Of a stretch of DNA of 10,612 nucleotides, positions 1,501 to 10,612 are shown piece by piece (within the stretch, counting starts at the first letter, position 1; every line of letters begins with the position of its first letter). The stretch is from Flavobacteriales bacterium (GTDB lineage Bacteria; Bacteroidota; Bacteroidia; Flavobacteriales; Parvicellaceae), in the NCBI GenBank assembly GCA_014239715.1, contig JAAZYJ010000198.1, forward strand, positions 1-10,612. The letters run 5' to 3'. The notes under the pieces were generated by a model. That model did no database searches and was not told the origin of the DNA. It saw only the letters and a list, made by a program, of their open reading frames with translations. The position numbers and the translations under genes are program-made.

Positions 1501-2586
1501 ATGAAAAAGGCATTAATTACAGGTGTTACGGGCCAGGATGGAGCATACTTATCAGAGCTGTTGCTTTCCAAAGGCTATGAGGTACACGGGGTCAAAAGAA
1601 GAACTTCGCTCTTCAATACAGATCGGATCGATCATTTATACAAAGATTTGCATGAAGCTAACGTCAAGTTCCTGCTCCATTATGGAGATTTGACTGACTC
1701 GACGAATCTGATTCGGATCATACAAGAGGTTCAGCCCGATGAGATCTACAACCTAGCTGCACAATCTCATGTAATGGTATCTTTCGAAACCCCTGAATAT
1801 ACAGCCAATTCGGATGCAATGGGAACGTTGCGGATACTTGAGGCGATTAGGATTCTGGGGTTAGAGCAAAAAACAAAATTTTATCAGGCCTCTACTTCAG
1901 AACTGTATGGTAAAGTACATGAAATCCCTCAAAATGAAACAACACCGTTTTACCCTAGAAGTCCATATGGCGTGGCTAAACTGTATGCCTATTGGATCAC
2001 GAAGAACTATCGTGAGGCGTATGGGATTTTTGCAAGCAACGGCATTCTGTTCAATCACGAATCTCCATTGCGTGGAGAAACTTTTGTAACAAGAAAGATA
2101 ACCAGAGCGGCCTGTCGAGTATCTTTAGGATTGCAGAAAACGTTGTTTCTTGGAAATCTGGATGCACAAAGGGACTGGGGTCACGCAAAAGACTATGTAG
2201 AAGGAATGTGGAGAATTTTACAACATGATGCTCCCGACGATTTTGTCCTTGCAACAGGCGTGACTGTAGCGGTCCGTGAGTTTGTTGATCTGGCCTTTGC
2301 GGAAGTTGGCATAGAACTGGAATGGACAGGAGAAGGAGTAAATGAAAAGGGCATTGATAAAAAGAGTAAAAAAGTAATAGTACAAGTTGATCCTAAATAT
2401 TTTCGACCTACTGAAGTGGACATTTTGGTCGGAGACGCTTCAAAAGCGAGGAAGGAGCTCGGCTGGGAGCACACGTACGACCTTAAGGCTTTGGTTAAGG
2501 ATATGATGGAATCGGATCTGGCACTTTTCAAAAAAGACAAATACCTAATGGATGGCGGGCATAAAGTAATGGACTACAATGAATAG
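1501..2586 (+). CDS. gmd: GDP-mannose 4,6-dehydratase
   Basis: Gmd converts GDP-D-mannose to GDP-4-keto-6-deoxy-D-mannose in the cytoplasm, the first committed step to GDP-L-fucose and related sugars. The 361-residue protein is an extended short-chain dehydrogenase/reductase. It has the NADP-binding GVTGQDG (Gly8, Gly11, Gly14), the RRTS motif near residue 33, and the catalytic set Thr132 and Glu134 (in STSELYG) plus Tyr156 and Lys160 (in YGVAK). These positions match the E. coli enzyme. [16 protein letters not shown] (residues 185-200) and [14 protein letters not shown] (224-237) are typical family signatures. The ATG at 1501 gives the expected N-terminus directly before the nucleotide-binding strand. 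The gene is the first of the cluster and overlaps fcl by 8 bases (ATGAATAG), suggesting coupled translation of the two consecutive pathway enzymes. Confidence 0.98.
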
Positions 2587-3523
2587 CTCGGATAAGATAT
2601 TTGTGGCCGGGCATCGCGGAATGGTTGGATCGGCAATTGTGCGTAAGCTTCAAGCAGAAGGGTTCAGCAGCATTGTGGTCAGAACTTCTTCTGAGCTCGA
2701 CCTCAAAAATCAGGCAGAAGTTGAGAAGTTTTTTCAGGATGAAAGGCCTGCGTATGTCTTCCTTGCAGCAGCCAAGGTCGGAGGAATCCATGCAAACAAT
2801 GTTTTTCGTGGCGAGTTTATTTATGAAAACCTTATGATTCAAAGCAATGTTATTCATCAGGCACATGTTGCTGACGTGAAGAAATTGTTGTTTTTGGGTT
2901 CTTCATGCATTTACCCTAAGCTGGCTCCTCAACCGATGCAAGAGAAAAGCCTGTTGTCTGATGTGCTTGAGCCAACCAACGAACCATATGCGATCGCAAA
3001 AATAGCAGGCATAAAGATGTGTGAGGCGTATCGTGACCAATACGGTTGTGATTTCATTTCAGCAATGCCGACAAACTTATACGGCCCGAACGATAACTAT
3101 TACCTGAACAATTCTCACGTGCTACCGGCATTGATCAGAAAATTTCATGAGGCAAAGGCAAATCGGAGTGAGGAGGTTGTAGTTTGGGGAACGGGGTCGC
3201 CAAAAAGAGAATTCCTGCATGTTTCTGATCTGGCTGATGCGTGCTTCTTCTTAATGAAGAACTACTCAGGTTCTCAATTTGTGAATGTAGGCACAGGAGA
3301 AGATCTTAGCATTAAGGATCTGGCTTATGTGATCAAGAAAATTGTAGGCTTTGAAGGAGAGGTCGTTTTTGACGAAACCAAGCCGGATGGAACGCCCCGT
3401 AAATTAATGGACGTAAATAAGATCAATAATTTGGGTTGGAAACACCGTATTGAGCTGGGGGAAGGAATTGAATCCGTCTATTCTGAATTGATAGAAGCTA
3501 ATTATTTTGGTCAATTAGTATAA
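2579..3523 (+). CDS. fcl: GDP-L-fucose synthase (3,5-epimerase/4-reductase)
   Basis: Fcl (WcaG) epimerises the Gmd product at C3 and C5, then reduces C4 with NADPH, giving GDP-L-fucose. The 314-residue SDR protein shows GHRGMVGS (residues 11-18) for cofactor binding, the catalytic Ser108 and Cys110 in [11 protein letters not shown], Tyr137 and Lys141 in [10 protein letters not shown], and His180 in NNSHVLPAL. All are offset by one from the corresponding E. coli residues. [11 protein letters not shown] and [18 protein letters not shown] are also family hallmarks. The ATG at 2579 lies inside the end of gmd, so the two genes are likely translationally coupled. The stop TAA at 3521-3523 is in the same frame as the following gene, 6 bases before its proposed TTG start. 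Confidence 0.98.
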
Positions 3524-3529
3524 ACTTGT

Positions 3530-5080
3530 TTGAAGTACACGCTTTGCATAGCAGCTATATTGTTCACTTTCTCCCTGAAAGGTCAACAGAAAAATTTGCC
3601 GCTAAACCATGAGTTGAATTACCGAATTCAACGAATAATGATTGTCGATGACACTATAATCCATTCCTCATTAAGACCTTACGTTGAAAGCAGTGCCGGT
3701 ATGAAGGACGTCAATAAAGTAATGATCGATTCAGGCTTGTACTACTACGCCATTACACAGAAGCTTTGCAAAGAAAACCTGCTGGAGCTCAAAGGAGATG
3801 ACTATCGACTAACGCTGGATCCACTTGGGAATTTCAGATGGGGGAAGGATTTGAACCAGGATTTTCGCATCATGACCAGAAATACACGAGCCCTTCGTGT
3901 ACAAGGAGATCTTGGGTCCAATTTTTCATTTGAGTCATTTTTTTACGAGAATTTGGTCAAAATGCCGGAATATATCGTTGATTATGCCAATCAAACCGGT
4001 ACATTGCCCAGTGAAGGGCGCGTAAAATTGTACGGAGGAAAATTAGATTACGGCTACGCCATGGGGTATGTTTCGTTCAGTCCAAGTAAAAACCTCAACA
4101 TACAGTTGGGACACGGCAAACATTTCATCGGAAATGGTTATCGTAGTATGTTGTTGTCTGACTATGCTTTCAACTATCCATACCTTAGGACGACCTATGA
4201 TTTCGCAAACGGCAAGTTGAAGTACACTTCTATTTTTGCTCAGCTCTCGTCGATGACAAGACTGCCGGTGTCAACCACGCCCGAGGCCACATTCAAGGAG
4301 AAGTTGGGCAACTTTCATTATTTAACATTCAAGCCGGGTCCGAAACTTGAAATAGGGATCTTTGAAGGCGGAATTTTTAAGCAATACGTCGACACCCTGG
4401 GTACAGTGCCGCTGGATTTTTCTGCTTACTCTCCTATTATCGGAACTTCATTTGCATTTAACGGGTTTGAAGGGTCAAATAACGTCGTTCTTGGGGTCAA
4501 CCTTAGCTATCGTTTACTAAAAAAGGTGCAGATCTACGGACAGCTTGTAGCAGACAATCCAGCTAAGAAAAAACTTGGTTATCAGGTTGGAGTAAAATCG
4601 TTTGACGGTTTTGGAATAAAAAATCTGTATCTACAGGCCGAACTTAATAGTGCTCTTCCTTATACCTTTGCTACAGCGGGTAGCGAGCCTCTTCAAAATT
4701 GGATGCACATGAGTGCGCCTCTCGCACACCCTTATGGAGCCAGCTTCACAGAATTGGTTGGTATAGGCTATTATGAGAAAAGAAAGATATTCGGCCAGAT
4801 CAAAGTTGTATCAGGTATCATAAAAGGGCTGGGGGATGGTTACCAATACAACATTGACTTCCCTGATGAGGTGGTTGAAGGGGACTCGGATGAACAAAGA
4901 ACGATCTACAATAATGTGCAAGAGCTTACAATTGGTTACAGACTCAATGTGAAAACGAATTTAACCAGTTTTATTAGTGCCAGGAACAGAGTACATGCTG
5001 ATCATAATTCAGTGTCAAACTCAACCTTTATTTATCTGGGAATACGAACAAACCTGAACAACCTTTATTACGATTTCTGA
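3530..5080 (+). CDS. Wzi/RemB-like outer-membrane protein, copy 1
   Basis: This is a predicted outer-membrane beta-barrel of the Wzi (capsule assembly) / RemB (gliding-associated) type, 516 residues. A signal peptide is visible (MKYTLCIAAILFTFSLKGQQ, cut probably near residue 18). The rest is rich in alternating aromatic and polar strands and ends in NLYYDF, with a terminal Phe expected of a BamA-recognised barrel. Diagnostic blocks are GHGKHFIGNGYRS (194-206), LLSDYAFNYPY, YGQLVADNP, QVGVKSFDG and LAHPYG (398-403). All recur in the second copy at 6189. Wzi binds capsule at the cell surface in Gram-negatives, and RemB is reported in Flavobacterium gliding studies; which role applies here is inferred. 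The start is TTG at 3530. An in-frame TAA lies at 3521-3523 and the next in-frame ATG is at codon 37, beyond the signal peptide. The stop overlaps the next start by one base (TGATG). Confidence 0.85.
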   Translation: MKYTLCIAAILFTFSLKGQQKNLPLNHELNYRIQRIMIVDDTIIHSSLRPYVESSAGMKDVNKVMIDSGLYYYAITQKLCKENLLELKGDDYRLTLDPLGNFRWGKDLNQDFRIMTRNTRALRVQGDLGSNFSFESFFYENLVKMPEYIVDYANQTGTLPSEGRVKLYGGKLDYGYAMGYVSFSPSKNLNIQLGHGKHFIGNGYRSMLLSDYAFNYPYLRTTYDFANGKLKYTSIFAQLSSMTRLPVSTTPEATFKEKLGNFHYLTFKPGPKLEIGIFEGGIFKQYVDTLGTVPLDFSAYSPIIGTSFAFNGFEGSNNVVLGVNLSYRLLKKVQIYGQLVADNPAKKKLGYQVGVKSFDGFGIKNLYLQAELNSALPYTFATAGSEPLQNWMHMSAPLAHPYGASFTELVGIGYYEKRKIFGQIKVVSGIIKGLGDGYQYNIDFPDEVVEGDSDEQRTIYNNVQELTIGYRLNVKTNLTSFISARNRVHADHNSVSNSTFIYLGIRTNLNNLYYDF

Positions 5081-6192
5081 TGGCGGAGAACACGATCTTA
5101 TTGGGTTTTATTACTGCGTTCTTCATTGTACTGATGGCAACCCCCTCTTTGATCAAGGTGGCTAAGCTGAAACATCTTGTGGACGAACCCGGCGAAGACC
5201 GCAAGATCCACAGAAGAAGCATTCCTACAATAGGTGGCATCATCATTTTTGGCGCGGTTCTGTTCTCGTATGCCTTGTGGTACCCGGAGAGCTATTCCAC
5301 TGTTATCGAAGAGAACGACTATTTCATTAAGGAGGCATTAACGATCTTCAAATACCTTACTGCTTGTCTGATCCTGTTGTTCTTTGTAGGGATTAAAGAT
5401 GATATCATCGGTACCGCACCATTGAAAAAACTACTTGCACATATGTTGGTCGGTTTTATTCTGGTAATGATGGGCGGGATAAAAATTGAAGGCATGCACG
5501 GCATTTTCGGTATTGGTGATTTCTATGAGGAATGGGCGGGAGTGTTGCTGTCTGTATTTGTTTATATCGTCGTTGTAAATGCATATAATCTTATTGATGG
5601 TGTTGACGGATTAGCGGCAGGAATAGGGTTTATCAATTCATGCATGTTTGCAGGGTGGTTCTATTATACCGGAAATATTCCTTTGGCCTTACTGGCAATG
5701 ATCTTAGCCGGAACGCTATTGGGCTTTTTAGTATTCAATTTCAGTCCTGCAAAAATATTCATGGGTGATTCTGGCTCCATGGTGATCGGGGCGATCATAT
5801 CTGTGCTGGCTATTAGTATGATCAATGAAGATCAATCCAGAGTTCGTGAAACTATGGGCCTGCTGGCAAAAATTCCAACTCCTGTTTTCGCAATGGCTGT
5901 GCTGGTTTATCCGCTCATTGATACGATCAGAATATTTGCCGTGCGGGCAAGCCGTGGGAACTCTCCATTTTCAGCAGATAAAAATCACATCCATCATAGA
6001 CTTATTGGTTCAGGATTGAGTCATGCCAAAACCGTTGTGGTTTTGTATGGGTACAATATTTTGGTGGTTGGCCTGTCTATTTTGTTTGCGCAGGATAATG
6101 CGACAGTTAGCTTTTTTATTGCTGTCGGAATTGCTGTGTTTTTGGCCGGACTGATCTTATTGATTTTTCGACGTAAAGCTCGAAAAGAATGA
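5080..6192 (+). CDS. Undecaprenyl-phosphate sugar-1-phosphate transferase, WecA/TagO type
   Basis: This is a polytopic inner-membrane enzyme of the MraY/WecA family. It would transfer a sugar 1-phosphate, likely GlcNAc-1-P, from a UDP-sugar to undecaprenyl phosphate and so start a surface glycan. The 370-residue protein has about ten or eleven hydrophobic segments. Family motifs are in order: DEPGEDRKIH and PTIGGI near the N-terminus, Asp107-Asp108 in GIKDD, NAYNLIDGVDGLAAG (167-181), FNFSPAKIFMGDSGS (219-233) and HIHHRL (303-308). The C-terminal HxHH motif favours the WecA/TagO branch over MraY, as does the setting outside a peptidoglycan cluster. The sugar specificity cannot be settled by eye. 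The ATG at 5080 shares one base with the preceding stop, and its own TGA overlaps the next start by 4 bases (ATGA). It is sandwiched between the two Wzi-like paralogues. Confidence 0.92.
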   Translation: MAENTILLGFITAFFIVLMATPSLIKVAKLKHLVDEPGEDRKIHRRSIPTIGGIIIFGAVLFSYALWYPESYSTVIEENDYFIKEALTIFKYLTACLILLFFVGIKDDIIGTAPLKKLLAHMLVGFILVMMGGIKIEGMHGIFGIGDFYEEWAGVLLSVFVYIVVVNAYNLIDGVDGLAAGIGFINSCMFAGWFYYTGNIPLALLAMILAGTLLGFLVFNFSPAKIFMGDSGSMVIGAIISVLAISMINEDQSRVRETMGLLAKIPTPVFAMAVLVYPLIDTIRIFAVRASRGNSPFSADKNHIHHRLIGSGLSHAKTVVVLYGYNILVVGLSILFAQDNATVSFFIAVGIAVFLAGLILLIFRRKARKE

Positions 6193-7715
6193 AATATATT
6201 AGTGCGGTTTTTCTTTTCATTCACTCTGTTGGCCTTTTCGCCCAAAGTCAGCTTGGCAATGTGCCTATGCATCGTTATGCTGAAAGGGATATCAGCAAAC
6301 TGAACGTAAAATATGGAGGCAGCTCATCCATTAGACCCTATGTATATGATGAATACCCTGACTCCGTATTTGTTGTTGCTGGTTTGTGCCAGCTCCAGAA
6401 GAAAAATAGTACCACTCGATTAAAACTTCTTTCAGACATCGAAACAGGTGCCGACAATAATAGGCTTGGAACAGATCTGGCAATTCACGGTGGATTGGGA
6501 TTTGGCGCTGAATATAAGCTGAAGAATAAACTCTTATTATCTGTTGATGCAATTGGGAATTATCTAAACGGACCGTCATTTGTTGATTCCATAATGCAGA
6601 GCTTGGGTGTTGCTCCATCATTTGGTCGGGTAACTAAGTTCGGCTCTGGATATGGCCACCTTCAGATACAAGGCTATTTGCACTTCAAGGCCAATAAATT
6701 CTTCACCTTACAACTGGGAAATGGAAAGAACTTTTTTGGTGACGGATATAGATCTCTGTTATTGAGTGATGTGGCCAATAATTACCCCTATTTTAAGATC
6801 TCGACCAAGGTGTGGAAGATCAAATATATCAATCTGTTTACTAGACAAAGACACATTTATGGATCGGAAGGTGATCCACAGAATTTTAAGGGAAAGTTTA
6901 CGGCAACGCACTATCTGGATTGGGACTTATCCCGCGTTGTCAATATTGGTTTTTTTGAGACAATTGTGTGGCAGTCGGAAGATACTCTGTTGAATCGCGG
7001 TTTTGATATTAACTATTTGAACCCAATCATATTTTATCGACCTGTAGAATACCAGCAAGGTTCAGCAGATAACGCAATTATGGGAATGAACATTAGTGTG
7101 AACGTATGCAAAAAGCTTAAGGTGTATGGGCAACTCGTTATTGATGAATTCTTACTTTCTGAGATAAGAGCTGATAGCGGGTGGTGGGCAAACAAGTACG
7201 GAGGCCAGATCGGTGTGAAATCTTTTGATTTTCTATTAGAAGGGTTGGATCTGCAGACTGAACTAACCGCAGTTAGGCCATACACGTATTCACACGGCGC
7301 ACCTGTCCAAAATTATGCCCATGACAACGCTTCGTTGGCACACCCGTATGGTTCTAACTTTTGGGAATGGATGAGCTTTATTCGTTATACCAAGAAGAAA
7401 TGGATCTTTGAAGAACAGGTAAGCGTGGCAATGCACGGGAAAGACTCTATACCATCTATCTCATACGGGGGCAATATTTTTCAACCTTATTCGAACAGGC
7501 CCTATGATTACGGGCACTTTATAGGCCAAGGCTCAAACACAAGAATCTTTTACAGTCATCTCAGAATATCGTATCTGATACATGCTAAAACAAATTTGAG
7601 GGCAGAGCTGGGCTATGTGTTCAGAGAACTGAAAAGTGGACTGGAGTTTAAATCCGACCATTATGTATACTTTGGGTTGAAAACAAATTTATGGAACAGG
7701 TATAATGACTATTAA
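6189..7715 (+). CDS. Wzi/RemB-like outer-membrane protein, copy 2
   Basis: This 508-residue protein is a diverged paralogue of the protein at 3530. It has a clear signal peptide (MKYISAVFLFIHSVGLFAQ, cleavage likely after Ala18) and then a mature part of barrel-like strands ending in NRYNDY with a terminal Tyr. Shared blocks are SIRPYV (residues 47-52, the same place as SLRPYV in copy 1), GNGKNFFGDGYRS (177-189), LLSDVANNYPY, YGQLVIDE, QIGVKSFD, LQTELTAVRPYTY and LAHPYG (383-388). The first 45 or so mature residues and the middle (about 60-150) differ most, so the two copies may not be interchangeable. By family it belongs at the outer membrane in surface polysaccharide display or gliding; that role is inferred. 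The start overlaps the transferase gene (ATGA) and the end overlaps the next gene by 11 bases. Confidence 0.85.
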   Translation: MKYISAVFLFIHSVGLFAQSQLGNVPMHRYAERDISKLNVKYGGSSSIRPYVYDEYPDSVFVVAGLCQLQKKNSTTRLKLLSDIETGADNNRLGTDLAIHGGLGFGAEYKLKNKLLLSVDAIGNYLNGPSFVDSIMQSLGVAPSFGRVTKFGSGYGHLQIQGYLHFKANKFFTLQLGNGKNFFGDGYRSLLLSDVANNYPYFKISTKVWKIKYINLFTRQRHIYGSEGDPQNFKGKFTATHYLDWDLSRVVNIGFFETIVWQSEDTLLNRGFDINYLNPIIFYRPVEYQQGSADNAIMGMNISVNVCKKLKVYGQLVIDEFLLSEIRADSGWWANKYGGQIGVKSFDFLLEGLDLQTELTAVRPYTYSHGAPVQNYAHDNASLAHPYGSNFWEWMSFIRYTKKKWIFEEQVSVAMHGKDSIPSISYGGNIFQPYSNRPYDYGHFIGQGSNTRIFYSHLRISYLIHAKTNLRAELGYVFRELKSGLEFKSDHYVYFGLKTNLWNRYNDY

Positions 7716-8166
7716 CGACAGCACTAAACGTGAACTATTAATGCACTGTCATCAATATGTTTCAGAACGCATCAATCGATTTTCAAATGCCATTTCTTCA
7801 GCTCAGATTGATGCGAATAAAGAAACAAAGAGCTCTGCCGGTGACAAACATGAAACCGGTCGTGCAATGGCCCAATTGGAAACAGAGAACAATTCGAAAC
7901 ACCTCTCCGAGGCGCATAAACTGAAAGCTACATTAGGTCAAATAGACCCGGATAAAAAATGTGCATGTATTGAATTGGGAGCTCTGGTAAAGACAGATAA
8001 AGGAAATTACTTTATTTCGATTAGCGCTGGAAAGGTAGAATTTCAGGGAGAAGATGTTTATATGGTTTCTGTTGCATCACCTATAGGTCAGCATTTTTTA
8101 GGTAAAAAAGGCGGCGAAAGTGTTAGCATCAATGGCCAAACCCATATAATACAAGGGGTAGTGTGA
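7705..8166 (+). CDS. GreA/GreB-family protein
   Basis: This 153-residue protein has a C-terminal half matching the GreA/GreB FKBP-like domain. Residues 88-153 contain CIELGALVKTDKG, then VASPIGQHFLGKKGGESV (123-140) and a final beta segment. The SPIGxxxLGKKxG signature is the Gre hallmark. The N-terminal half is predicted helical, with SSAGDKHETGRAMAQLE (43-59) where the Gre coiled-coil tip would be; this does not look like the usual GreA tip. From memory, short Gre-like proteins with this AGDKxETGRAM motif are common in Bacteroidota and are sometimes labelled 3-oxoacyl-ACP synthase in error. A role at the RNA polymerase secondary channel is possible but inferred. No signal peptide is seen, so it is cytoplasmic. 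It overlaps the preceding gene by 11 bases and closes the cluster. A 20-base gap separates it from the restored end of the convergent peptidase gene. Confidence 0.82.
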   Translation: MTINDSTKRELLMHCHQYVSERINRFSNAISSAQIDANKETKSSAGDKHETGRAMAQLETENNSKHLSEAHKLKATLGQIDPDKKCACIELGALVKTDKGNYFISISAGKVEFQGEDVYMVSVASPIGQHFLGKKGGESVSINGQTHIIQGVV

Positions 8167-8168
8167 TC

Positions 8169-8186
8169 AGCTGCTGTTTTGCAGCT
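8169..8186. terminator. Small hairpin between convergent genes
   Basis: AGCTGC at 8169-8174 and GCAGCT at 8181-8186 form a perfect 6-base-pair stem around a TGTTTT loop. It sits 2 bases after the gre-like stop codon and directly next to the restored TAG of the opposite-strand peptidase gene (8187-8189). Placement suggests a shared bidirectional terminator. No run of T follows on either strand, so it may instead be a weak or accidental hairpin. Confidence 0.4.
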
Positions 8187-8228
8187 CTATTTCACGACTA
8201 TCATTCGCTTCGGAGCGCTTCTTAGGTC
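8187..8228 (-). pseudogene. Detached T9SS sorting-signal tail after in-frame TGA
   Basis: Past the TGA at 8229-8231 the same minus-strand frame continues for 13 codons, DLRSAPKRMIVVK, and then reaches TAG at 8187-8189. This is what the last segment of a type A T9SS sorting domain looks like: a polar turn, then a basic pair, a hydrophobic strand and a terminal Lys. With Gly in place of the stop, the junction would read YYVRS-G-DLRSAPK, a normal ending. The codon TGA is one base from GGA (Gly), and also one base from CGA or AGA (Arg). The segment is therefore the lost end of the peptidase gene. It has no start codon or function of its own. Confidence 0.75.
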
Positions 8229-8231
8229 TCA
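8229..8231 (-). other. In-frame TGA interrupting the T9SS sorting domain
   Basis: On the minus strand the codons run TAT GTC CGA TCT TGA GAC CTA, so the stop falls between VRS and DLRSAPK with no change of frame. Family pattern predicts a small turn residue here, most simply Gly (GGA). TGA serves as the ordinary stop of three other genes in this window (ending at 5080, 6192 and 8166), so a different genetic code is unlikely. Confidence 0.8.
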
Positions 8232-10612
8232 AGATCGGACATAGTACAGATATGTGCCTCCACCGTATGTTTGAGTGTTCACCTCAATACTTCTGCTTCT
8301 CGGATCAATTGATGTTTTCTCAATAACCTGACCAACACTATTGGTTACAATGAATTCGGCTTTAATTACATCAGGTGGAAAGCTATAGTTAATATAAGTA
8401 TGCCCGGATGATGGGTTGGGCATGTTCTGCTCTACACCAAACGAATTTTCAATCGATCCATTTACAGAAGTAGGGGCTGTGACTGCGGTAACTTCAAAAT
8501 CATCAAAATAAAATCCATCCTCATTGACCCAATTGTCACTCACTAACTGGAATCTGAATTGAATGCTCTGACCTAGATAATCACTAAGATCAATTTCTTC
8601 TTGGACCCAGCTGTTCTGCGTTCCATCCCAAAGTGGGTTTCCCGGGTCCTGATCAGCTGTTCCCGGACCAGTGTATTTTCCACATTGCGGGATCCAGGAT
8701 GTTCCGCCATCTGTCGACACCTGCAATTGTACGTAATCATACCCGGCCTCAATGTCCCATCGCGCCCAGAACATAAGATTAGCCGAAATAGCATTGGTAA
8801 GATCAACCGCGTTGTCAAGGCTAATGGTGTTTACATCATTGTTGTTATAGTCATTTCCCGACCCCGGAGAATCCGTTATGGAAGAAGAAGGAGAATAGTA
8901 CTCCAGACCTGTTGCATCCCAATCCGCGCTTGTCCAATTGGCCATGGATGAGGCGTCATCTGCAAAGATCACTGTTCCGTTGCCAAAAGTTTTTATGATG
9001 GTATCGGTTGTTACAAATTGGCCGTTGTCCAGACTGATCGCATACTCGATCGGGTCTCCATCAACAATACCTCCCGACAGGGTATAGCTAACCGAATCCA
9101 GATCAGTTTGAAGTAACGTCATTCCGTTATGCGTTTTAACCGGACTGGAAAATGTAATGTTTGTAATGCCTGTGAAAGTTACTGTGAAGTCTGCGGGGTC
9201 TTGCAGTCCCAATCGTTGGATCTCGTATTGAGCATACCCCGAAAGAGTATTCCATAGGGGAGGATTAAGGTCAGCTACATTTGCATAATTCGTAATCAGA
9301 TGGGCGGCGGTCAGATTCATATATACAGTACTTTTGCAGATGTCCTCGATCTGACTGCTGGCTGGCCAGAAAGAAGGACCGATTTCAGGAGTCATGGCGA
9401 AAATTTTATCGTGTGTTGCTGTTTCAGCATACATCCAGTCGTCGGAATCTCCGGATGCCGGATATAGGTCTGCTGATAACATGTTGTTGAACCCATTTTG
9501 CTCAACCATCATAGCAGAGATAGTTTCAAATGTAGGATTGTCAGGTGTCAGTACCGGATTGTATCCGTGAGGATAAAGCAACAGGTCTCCGGACGTGTGT
9601 GAATTTAGTGCCATTACAAATTCCCGTTGTTCACATAGCCATTTCATTGCTTGATTTTCTGCCTCAGAAAAAGCAGCCGTTCCAGGGTAATTGTCAGCCC
9701 ACACGTCCCAGCTAATGCCGGTAGTTCCCCATTCGTAAGAGTAGTTTCTATTGTTGTCAACGCCAAAGTATCCGCCACCGTGATCTCTTCGGTTTTTTCT
9801 CCACATTCCGCCACCTGAGGGGTCTGTCGTTTCATTGTACACATAACCGTCGGGATTTAGAAGAGGCACAAAATAAAGCTCCGTATTGTCCAGAAGAGCT
9901 GTAATTTCCGGGTCTGTTCCATAATTTTCCAGGAGATACCACATGTAAAAAATAAGTTGAGATAAGCAGGCCGGCTCCCGGGCGTGGTGAATCGAGGAAT
10001 ATAGGATTTCAGGTTCCGGTTCATCAGTATTGGCATTATCAGACATTCGCAACCAGTAGATCGATCTTCCTTCATAAGTTTGAAACGTACTGATTGCCGA
10101 TTTTGAGGTGATCAGACTGGGGTAAAGCGACGCCATATTGTCCAGGTGGGCTATAGCTTCGCTATACGTAAAAAATCCACCCATAGAACCTAAGCTCCAA
10201 TTGGAAGGAGTTGTATAGTCCGTTGTTCCGGTCCCGTTTCCTGTGCAACTCAAATTTTTTGTTTCAAGTGATTTAATTTCAGAATTCATATTTTGTTGAA
10301 CGTAGTACTCCTTCACATCTTCGATAAGAATAGAAACATTCAAGCCCAGACCTTTTGCTACTTTCAATTCATTTTCCGAGAAATCCGATTCAATAAAAAC
10401 GCCTTGCTTGTGCTTACCATGGTCGATGACAACACCATTTTTTGCCAACAAGAACAAGTCTTTTGCCTGCGTGTAAAAAATTCGGGCTCTGCTGTATTTT
10501 TGTTGGACCCCCGAAAACTCTTTAGAGTACAATTCATAATCTTCAACTGTAACGGGAATCCCTACCAATTCAGTATTGGATGGGTTAACTTCTTGGGCTA
10601 AAGTGAAAAAGG
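8229..10612 (-). CDS. Secreted M14 zinc carboxypeptidase with MAM-like domain and T9SS sorting domain (5' end outside window, 3' end cut by TGA)
   Basis: The frame stays open to the right edge and reads FFTLAQEVNPSN just inside it, which looks like the end of a signal peptide. The start codon is therefore beyond 10612, and the TTG at 10568 is only an internal Leu. Counting from that TTG: a propeptide-like region (1-110), then a carboxypeptidase T-like M14 domain (about 130-430) with zinc ligands His195 and Glu198 (HHAREP) and His324 (NSHTSGD). Arg274 (GVDNNRNY), Tyr380 and Glu395 (MTPEIGP) match the substrate-binding and catalytic residues, so the enzyme should be active. An Ig-like stretch (430-530) and a MAM/jelly-roll-like domain (535-695, ending DGFYFDDFEV) follow, then a T9SS sorting domain from about 709 (GVEQNMPNPSSG). 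The reading frame ends at TGA 8229-8231, about 13 residues short of a complete sorting domain. The likely job is peptide breakdown outside the cell or at its surface. It faces the polysaccharide cluster and is probably unrelated to it. Confidence 0.92.
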   Translation of the reverse strand, partial: FFTLAQEVNPSNTELVGIPVTVEDYELYSKEFSGVQQKYSRARIFYTQAKDLFLLAKNGVVIDHGKHKQGVFIESDFSENELKVAKGLGLNVSILIEDVKEYYVQQNMNSEIKSLETKNLSCTGNGTGTTDYTTPSNWSLGSMGGFFTYSEAIAHLDNMASLYPSLITSKSAISTFQTYEGRSIYWLRMSDNANTDEPEPEILYSSIHHAREPACLSQLIFYMWYLLENYGTDPEITALLDNTELYFVPLLNPDGYVYNETTDPSGGGMWRKNRRDHGGGYFGVDNNRNYSYEWGTTGISWDVWADNYPGTAAFSEAENQAMKWLCEQREFVMALNSHTSGDLLLYPHGYNPVLTPDNPTFETISAMMVEQNGFNNMLSADLYPASGDSDDWMYAETATHDKIFAMTPEIGPSFWPASSQIEDICKSTVYMNLTAAHLITNYANVADLNPPLWNTLSGYAQYEIQRLGLQDPADFTVTFTGITNITFSSPVKTHNGMTLLQTDLDSVSYTLSGGIVDGDPIEYAISLDNGQFVTTDTIIKTFGNGTVIFADDASSMANWTSADWDATGLEYYSPSSSITDSPGSGNDYNNNDVNTISLDNAVDLTNAISANLMFWARWDIEAGYDYVQLQVSTDGGTSWIPQCGKYTGPGTADQDPGNPLWDGTQNSWVQEEIDLSDYLGQSIQFRFQLVSDNWVNEDGFYFDDFEVTAVTAPTSVNGSIENSFGVEQNMPNPSSGHTYINYSFPPDVIKAEFIVTNSVGQVIEKTSIDPRSRSIEVNTQTYGGGTYLYYVRS

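Follow-up and report, generated by a model that had tools for sequence, protein, structure and literature searches.

The question raised by this locus is whether an M14 peptidase carrying a T9SS sorting domain has lost the end of that domain, and with it its export, to one premature stop codon. The window, meaning the whole 10,612-nucleotide stretch that was analysed, holds a minus-strand frame that reads ...GGGTYLYYVRS, a TGA (8231-8229), the in-frame residues DLRSAPKRMIVVK, and a TAG (8189-8187). This is the arrangement described in the original prediction, and its range proved exact. The TGA stands 14 codons short of the ancestral end, within the last 1.7% of an 820-aa full-length homologue. 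We consider it probable that the gene is a recent nonsense allele, seen on a single contig, of an otherwise unchanged T9SS cargo whose export tail has been lost. Coordinates are given in Table 1.

Table 1. Features of the M14 peptidase gene and its convergent neighbor in the window.
Feature	Position	Strand	Basis or remark
M14 carboxypeptidase open frame	8229..10610	(-)	793 aa, TGA-ended; 5' end beyond window
Peptidase_M14 (PF00246), residues 154-429	9324..10151	(-)	187.7 bits, cut-off 21.6
InhA-like MAM domain (PF20773), residues 591-709	8484..8840	(-)	84.2 bits, cut-off 26.9
Residual T9SS type A sorting domain, residues 731-793	8232..8420	(-)	PF18962 positions 3-62/75, 16.5 bits
Premature stop codon TGA	8229..8231	(-)	frame reading and aligned residues of relatives
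13 untranslated codons DLRSAPKRMIVVK, ancestral tail (motif E, last strand)	8190..8228	(-)	homologue tails; strand 7 of intact relative
Ancestral stop codon TAG	8187..8189	(-)	20 bases from convergent gene
Convergent GreA-like gene	7705..8166	(+)	conserved neighbor in L001 (cut by contig end), L002 and L003

The body of the enzyme was examined for domains using Pfam. The PF00246 match is above its cut-off and spans profile positions 3-284 of 286, and the frame contains the motifs HHAREP and NSHTSGD, which presumably hold the zinc ligands. The expectation that the catalytic domain is intact is borne out by the M14 score (Table 1). No domain beyond M14 and MAM was identified in the frame at E<=0.001, and the sorting domain was unlisted at that threshold. 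The open frame begins within the signal-peptide region of the full-length homologue P0001, whose N-terminus is MKLLFSVSLMSFAFLTLAQ. About 13 residues are absent from the window, and by arithmetic the truncated product would have ∼806 aa vs 820 in P0001.

A homologue search that scored 7,998 candidates yielded 5,579 proteins with E<=0.001, of which the best 120 were examined. P0001 is the closest among the matches listed, 95% identical over 793 aa, the whole query. Its C-terminus is VRSGDLRSAPKRMIVVK, while that of P0002 and P0003 (90% identical) is KANGLRSAPKRMIVVK. The residues behind the TGA are identical to the C-terminus of P0001 at 13/13 positions, so the tail is not a product of chance. 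Since P0001 continues with VRSGDLRSAPKRMIVVK, the sequence comparison indicates an ancestral tail and a derived stop.

The length of the tail was then counted from the leftmost G-x-Y match within the last 27 residues. The window protein has 9 residues after this anchor, compared with 21–27 in 90/90 distinct relative loci that reach a stop, where the 27 of L063 reflects a chance match inside the tail. Among the proteins (best 120 of 5,579), 119/120 have 21–24 residues. The exception, P0042, lacks a precomputed sorting domain, comes from an assembly whose longest contig is 2,582 bases, and was probably cut off by a contig end. Counted outside the 90 loci were L081-L083 (the same places as L003, L002 and L001), L011 and L093 (contig ends before the stop), L084 (another protein, no strong match), and family-search matches without a given locus, including G005, G007, G031, G017 and G032. 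The possibility that orthologues all end at VRS was checked and does not hold, and with the tail retained in 90/90 loci and 119/120 proteins, the claim that a conserved type A T9SS tail has been removed is supported. The residues aligned to the TGA in the 119 proteins are Asn (39), Gly (34), Glu (17), Asp (8), Ala (7), Lys (6), Ser (4), Gln (3) and Thr (1). P0001 has Gly in this position, which at the level of the protein residue agrees with the proposal that a Gly codon was replaced by the stop.

The intact orthologues L001-L003 (genomes G001-G003) and P0001-P0010 share the M14 domain, the MAM-like region and the sorting domain with the window protein, and differ from it in having a complete tail at the end. 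L001-L003 also have the same convergent neighbor, and L002 and L003 preserve the order of the upstream genes. The genes facing the M14 gene in those two loci are, in order, Gmd-like, epimerase, a large protein, a family 4 glycosyltransferase, a second large protein and GreA-like. The contig of L001 terminates inside the GreA-like gene. In the window, Pfam identified the epimerase at 2579-3523 and glycosyltransferase 4 at 5080-6192; the names Gmd and Fcl are presumptive. The GreA/GreB C-terminal domain of 7705-8166 scored a weak 21.8 bits, under the cut-off of 26.9. The convergent stops are separated by 13 bases in L002 and by 5 in L003. In the window the distance is 20 bases if the M14 gene ends at the TAG, or 62 if it ends at the TGA. 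The 20-base gap is near those of the two relatives, so the position agrees with the TAG as the ancestral end.

Several other features of this neighborhood were observed. The GreA-like gene overlaps the end of the preceding gene. A hairpin that resembles a terminator, with a T-rich tail, lies between the convergent genes at 8173-8185 (+), where one was found vs 0.2 expected in shuffled sequences; it would end the transcript of the GreA-like gene. Two large proteins (3530-5080 and 6189-7715) flank the family 4 glycosyltransferase. Each is 27–30% identical to the L002/L003 orthologue of the other, so the two look like paralogues. The 6189-7715 protein had no Pfam match at E<=0.001. Elsewhere in the family, one genome carries a tandem pair of such M14 peptidase genes (G017:C62:284-5025).

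What remains of the sorting domain was evaluated using profiles and structure models. The PF18962 match of the window protein (Table 1) was obtained at a lenient limit and is under the cut-off of 27. With X in place of the stop, it extends to positions 3-75 and 22.5 bits. P0001 (26.4) and P0002 (26.5) fall just under the cut-off and P0004 (28.8) is over it. As P0001 and P0002 are just under it, this cut-off discriminates poorly in this clade. TIGR04183 (cut-off 23) gave 18.2 for P0002 and 28.0 for P0004, and the window protein and P0001 were unlisted at E<=10. This profile is uninformative because P0001 is unlisted.

AlphaFold2 models were built from the aligned domains of 22 relatives; the first 18 residues of the models are unreliable. 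The intact L003 domain was modeled with seven strands, the last at residues 98-102 (mean pLDDT 74.9). The truncated window domain was modeled with six strands, the first one shorter (mean pLDDT 75.4), and is not predicted to form the seven-stranded Ig-like sandwich. Motif E, the K-rich last strand, is absent from its C-terminus and sits behind the stop. The lost piece is therefore motif E, the seventh strand of a type A T9SS C-terminal domain (CTD). The window domain resembles type A CTDs (PF18962/TIGR04183; RgpB, NucA) in its C-terminal position, its NPxxG and G-x-Y features and its match to profile positions 3-62, and differs from them in having neither motif E nor the seventh strand.

A profile of the relatives' intact domains matched the NucA (Endonuclease I) CTD of the T9SS complex 8glk (E 2.9e-7), along with six other PDB sequences at E<=0.001. 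Using Foldseek, 8glk_D ranked eighth for the intact domain at an E value that does not reach 0.001, and unrelated Ig/FN3 folds scored alike. For the truncated domain 8glk_D was absent among the 50 matches listed, none of which reached E 0.001. This predicted difference between intact and truncated domains is weak.

A full-length enzyme would still be made if the TGA were translated, whether by read-through, recoding or a changed code. The frame is indeed open past the TGA and its residues are unchanged. Against this, three other window genes have TGA as their stop at the point where their orthologues end; in L002/L003 these orthologues differ in length by at most one residue and terminate with TAA or TGA. 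In this genome, TGA acts as an ordinary stop. Selenocysteine is disfavored by the aligned column, in which Cys occurs in 0/119 homologues, and by Rfam, in which no family matches the window at the gathering score. On these grounds a changed code and selenocysteine were ruled out as candidates; together with designed read-through they are unlikely. Low-level read-through giving two forms of the enzyme, an alternative offered in the original prediction, found no positive support. Overall, we regard translation of the TGA as exceedingly improbable.

A more serious competitor for the nonsense allele is an error of consensus or assembly, in which one base of the contig is wrong and the gene is intact in the living organism. 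Such an error predicts what is seen in the gene, namely a tail unchanged from P0001 (13/13) and no decay elsewhere. Amino acid changes between the window protein and P0001 were polarized by P0002/P0003, which placed 14 on the window side and 19 on the P0001 side and left 7 undecided, so there is no sign of decay in the window gene. The unchanged tail itself says little, because at 5% divergence only ∼0.65 changes are expected in 13 residues. By these two measures a sequencing error is indistinguishable from a very recent change.

Broken M14 genes in related assemblies bear on the same point. Among 20 family genomes whose match was better than 1e-100, 3 have frame breaks or a rearrangement in the M14 gene. 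In G005 (L097, G005:C9:134500-137700) the reading frame changes near residue 655, a TGA occurs early within the sorting domain, and a further sorting-domain match lies in another frame. The gene of G007 (L098, G007:C3:694200-697600) is split near residue 415 by a frame change, with the sorting domain intact (122.3 bits to the CTD profile). In G031 the gene is reversed at a contig end, also with an intact sorting domain (91.5 bits to the CTD profile), and this break is plainly an assembly matter. The sorting domain of G005 is more heavily broken than that of the window, which counts against such lesions being rare in the M14 gene of draft genomes, and the three cases together argue that errors in such assemblies are not rare.

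Two observations stand against an error. The stop sits in the final 1.7% of the gene, the part where a genuine truncation has the best chance of surviving. In addition, five of the other genes in the window equal their L002/L003 orthologues in length within three residues, which argues that the contig is not full of errors. A second nucleotide copy of the locus was sought by a contig scan, which gave loci of <=78% identity (80 kept of 145 relatives), and by genus and family searches round the nearest genome (3 and 39 genomes), which gave nothing closer. Plasmids had no match to 7705-9000, and viral contigs had no exact match to a 39-base pattern. Weighing these points, we consider an error unlikely though far from negligible, and a real nonsense allele, by plain loss or by selection taken together, likely.

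The PorU sortase (NF033707) was over cut-off in 3/3 nearest genomes and in 0/14 control genomes, so the lineage of the window very probably has a T9SS. The end of the CTD has been linked to export in several cargoes, as described in published reports (PMC10202324, PMC11285876, PMC5445135, PMC4804311). Deleting two residues at the end of RgpB hinders export (PMC11285876, PMC5445135), PPAD tolerates the loss of two residues and not of four (PMC11285876), and the last 22 residues of HBP35 are enough for export of GFP (PMC4804311). Cargoes of P. gingivalis thus vary in the number of terminal residues required, PPAD being more tolerant than RgpB, which counts against the expectation that export is lost. 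The window protein is short of 14 residues, so by analogy its export is expected to be lost or strongly reduced.

The laboratory truncations of RgpB and PPAD resemble the window allele in that the end of a type A CTD is lost and the catalytic part is intact; they differ in removing two to four residues rather than a natural 14, and in cargo and organism (PMC11285876, PMC5445135). In the parts of the literature on natural nonsense alleles of T9SS cargo that were accessible, no cargo with a lost CTD tail was found. Nonsense changes are described in fimbrial genes, with the CTD kept in all mfa5 genotypes (PMC8313007), as is a stop in gldB (PMC8400371).

The sequence of events that we favor starts with a recent nonsense mutation located 14 codons short of the ancestral end; it would have removed motif E, the last beta-strand. 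The truncated peptidase would presumably still cross the inner membrane and fold. The T9SS translocon and shuttle would no longer recognize its sorting domain, and the peptidase would then probably stay in the periplasm, be degraded there, or be only weakly exported. The extracellular role of the enzyme would thereby be lost in this cell line or sub-population.

Loss of export from an otherwise active peptidase could also have been selected, either because the cell then has the enzyme or its products to itself or because it avoids the cost of secretion. The stop does take the export tail and spare the catalytic domain in a gene free of general decay. However, this is one allele on one contig, and a single tail loss of this sort is absent in 90/90 relative loci. 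We consider selection very unlikely. A broader proposal, that last-strand nonsense alleles act as population switches in Bacteroidota, turning a shared extracellular enzyme into a private periplasmic one with both alleles coexisting, is more doubtful still.

Plain loss of the export tail by a recent nonsense change is therefore the reading carried forward. The consequence of such a lesion is already known from laboratory mutants of other cargoes. The locus also illustrates that profile annotation overlooks a T9SS cargo once its tail is cut, as no sorting domain appeared here at E<=0.001. If real, the allele would be a natural counterpart of the laboratory CTD truncations, an otherwise intact hydrolase minus its export tail. 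Though one contig is too little to establish a general pattern, the allele would also raise the question of whether bacteria often give up a shared extracellular enzyme through loss of its secretion instead of its activity.
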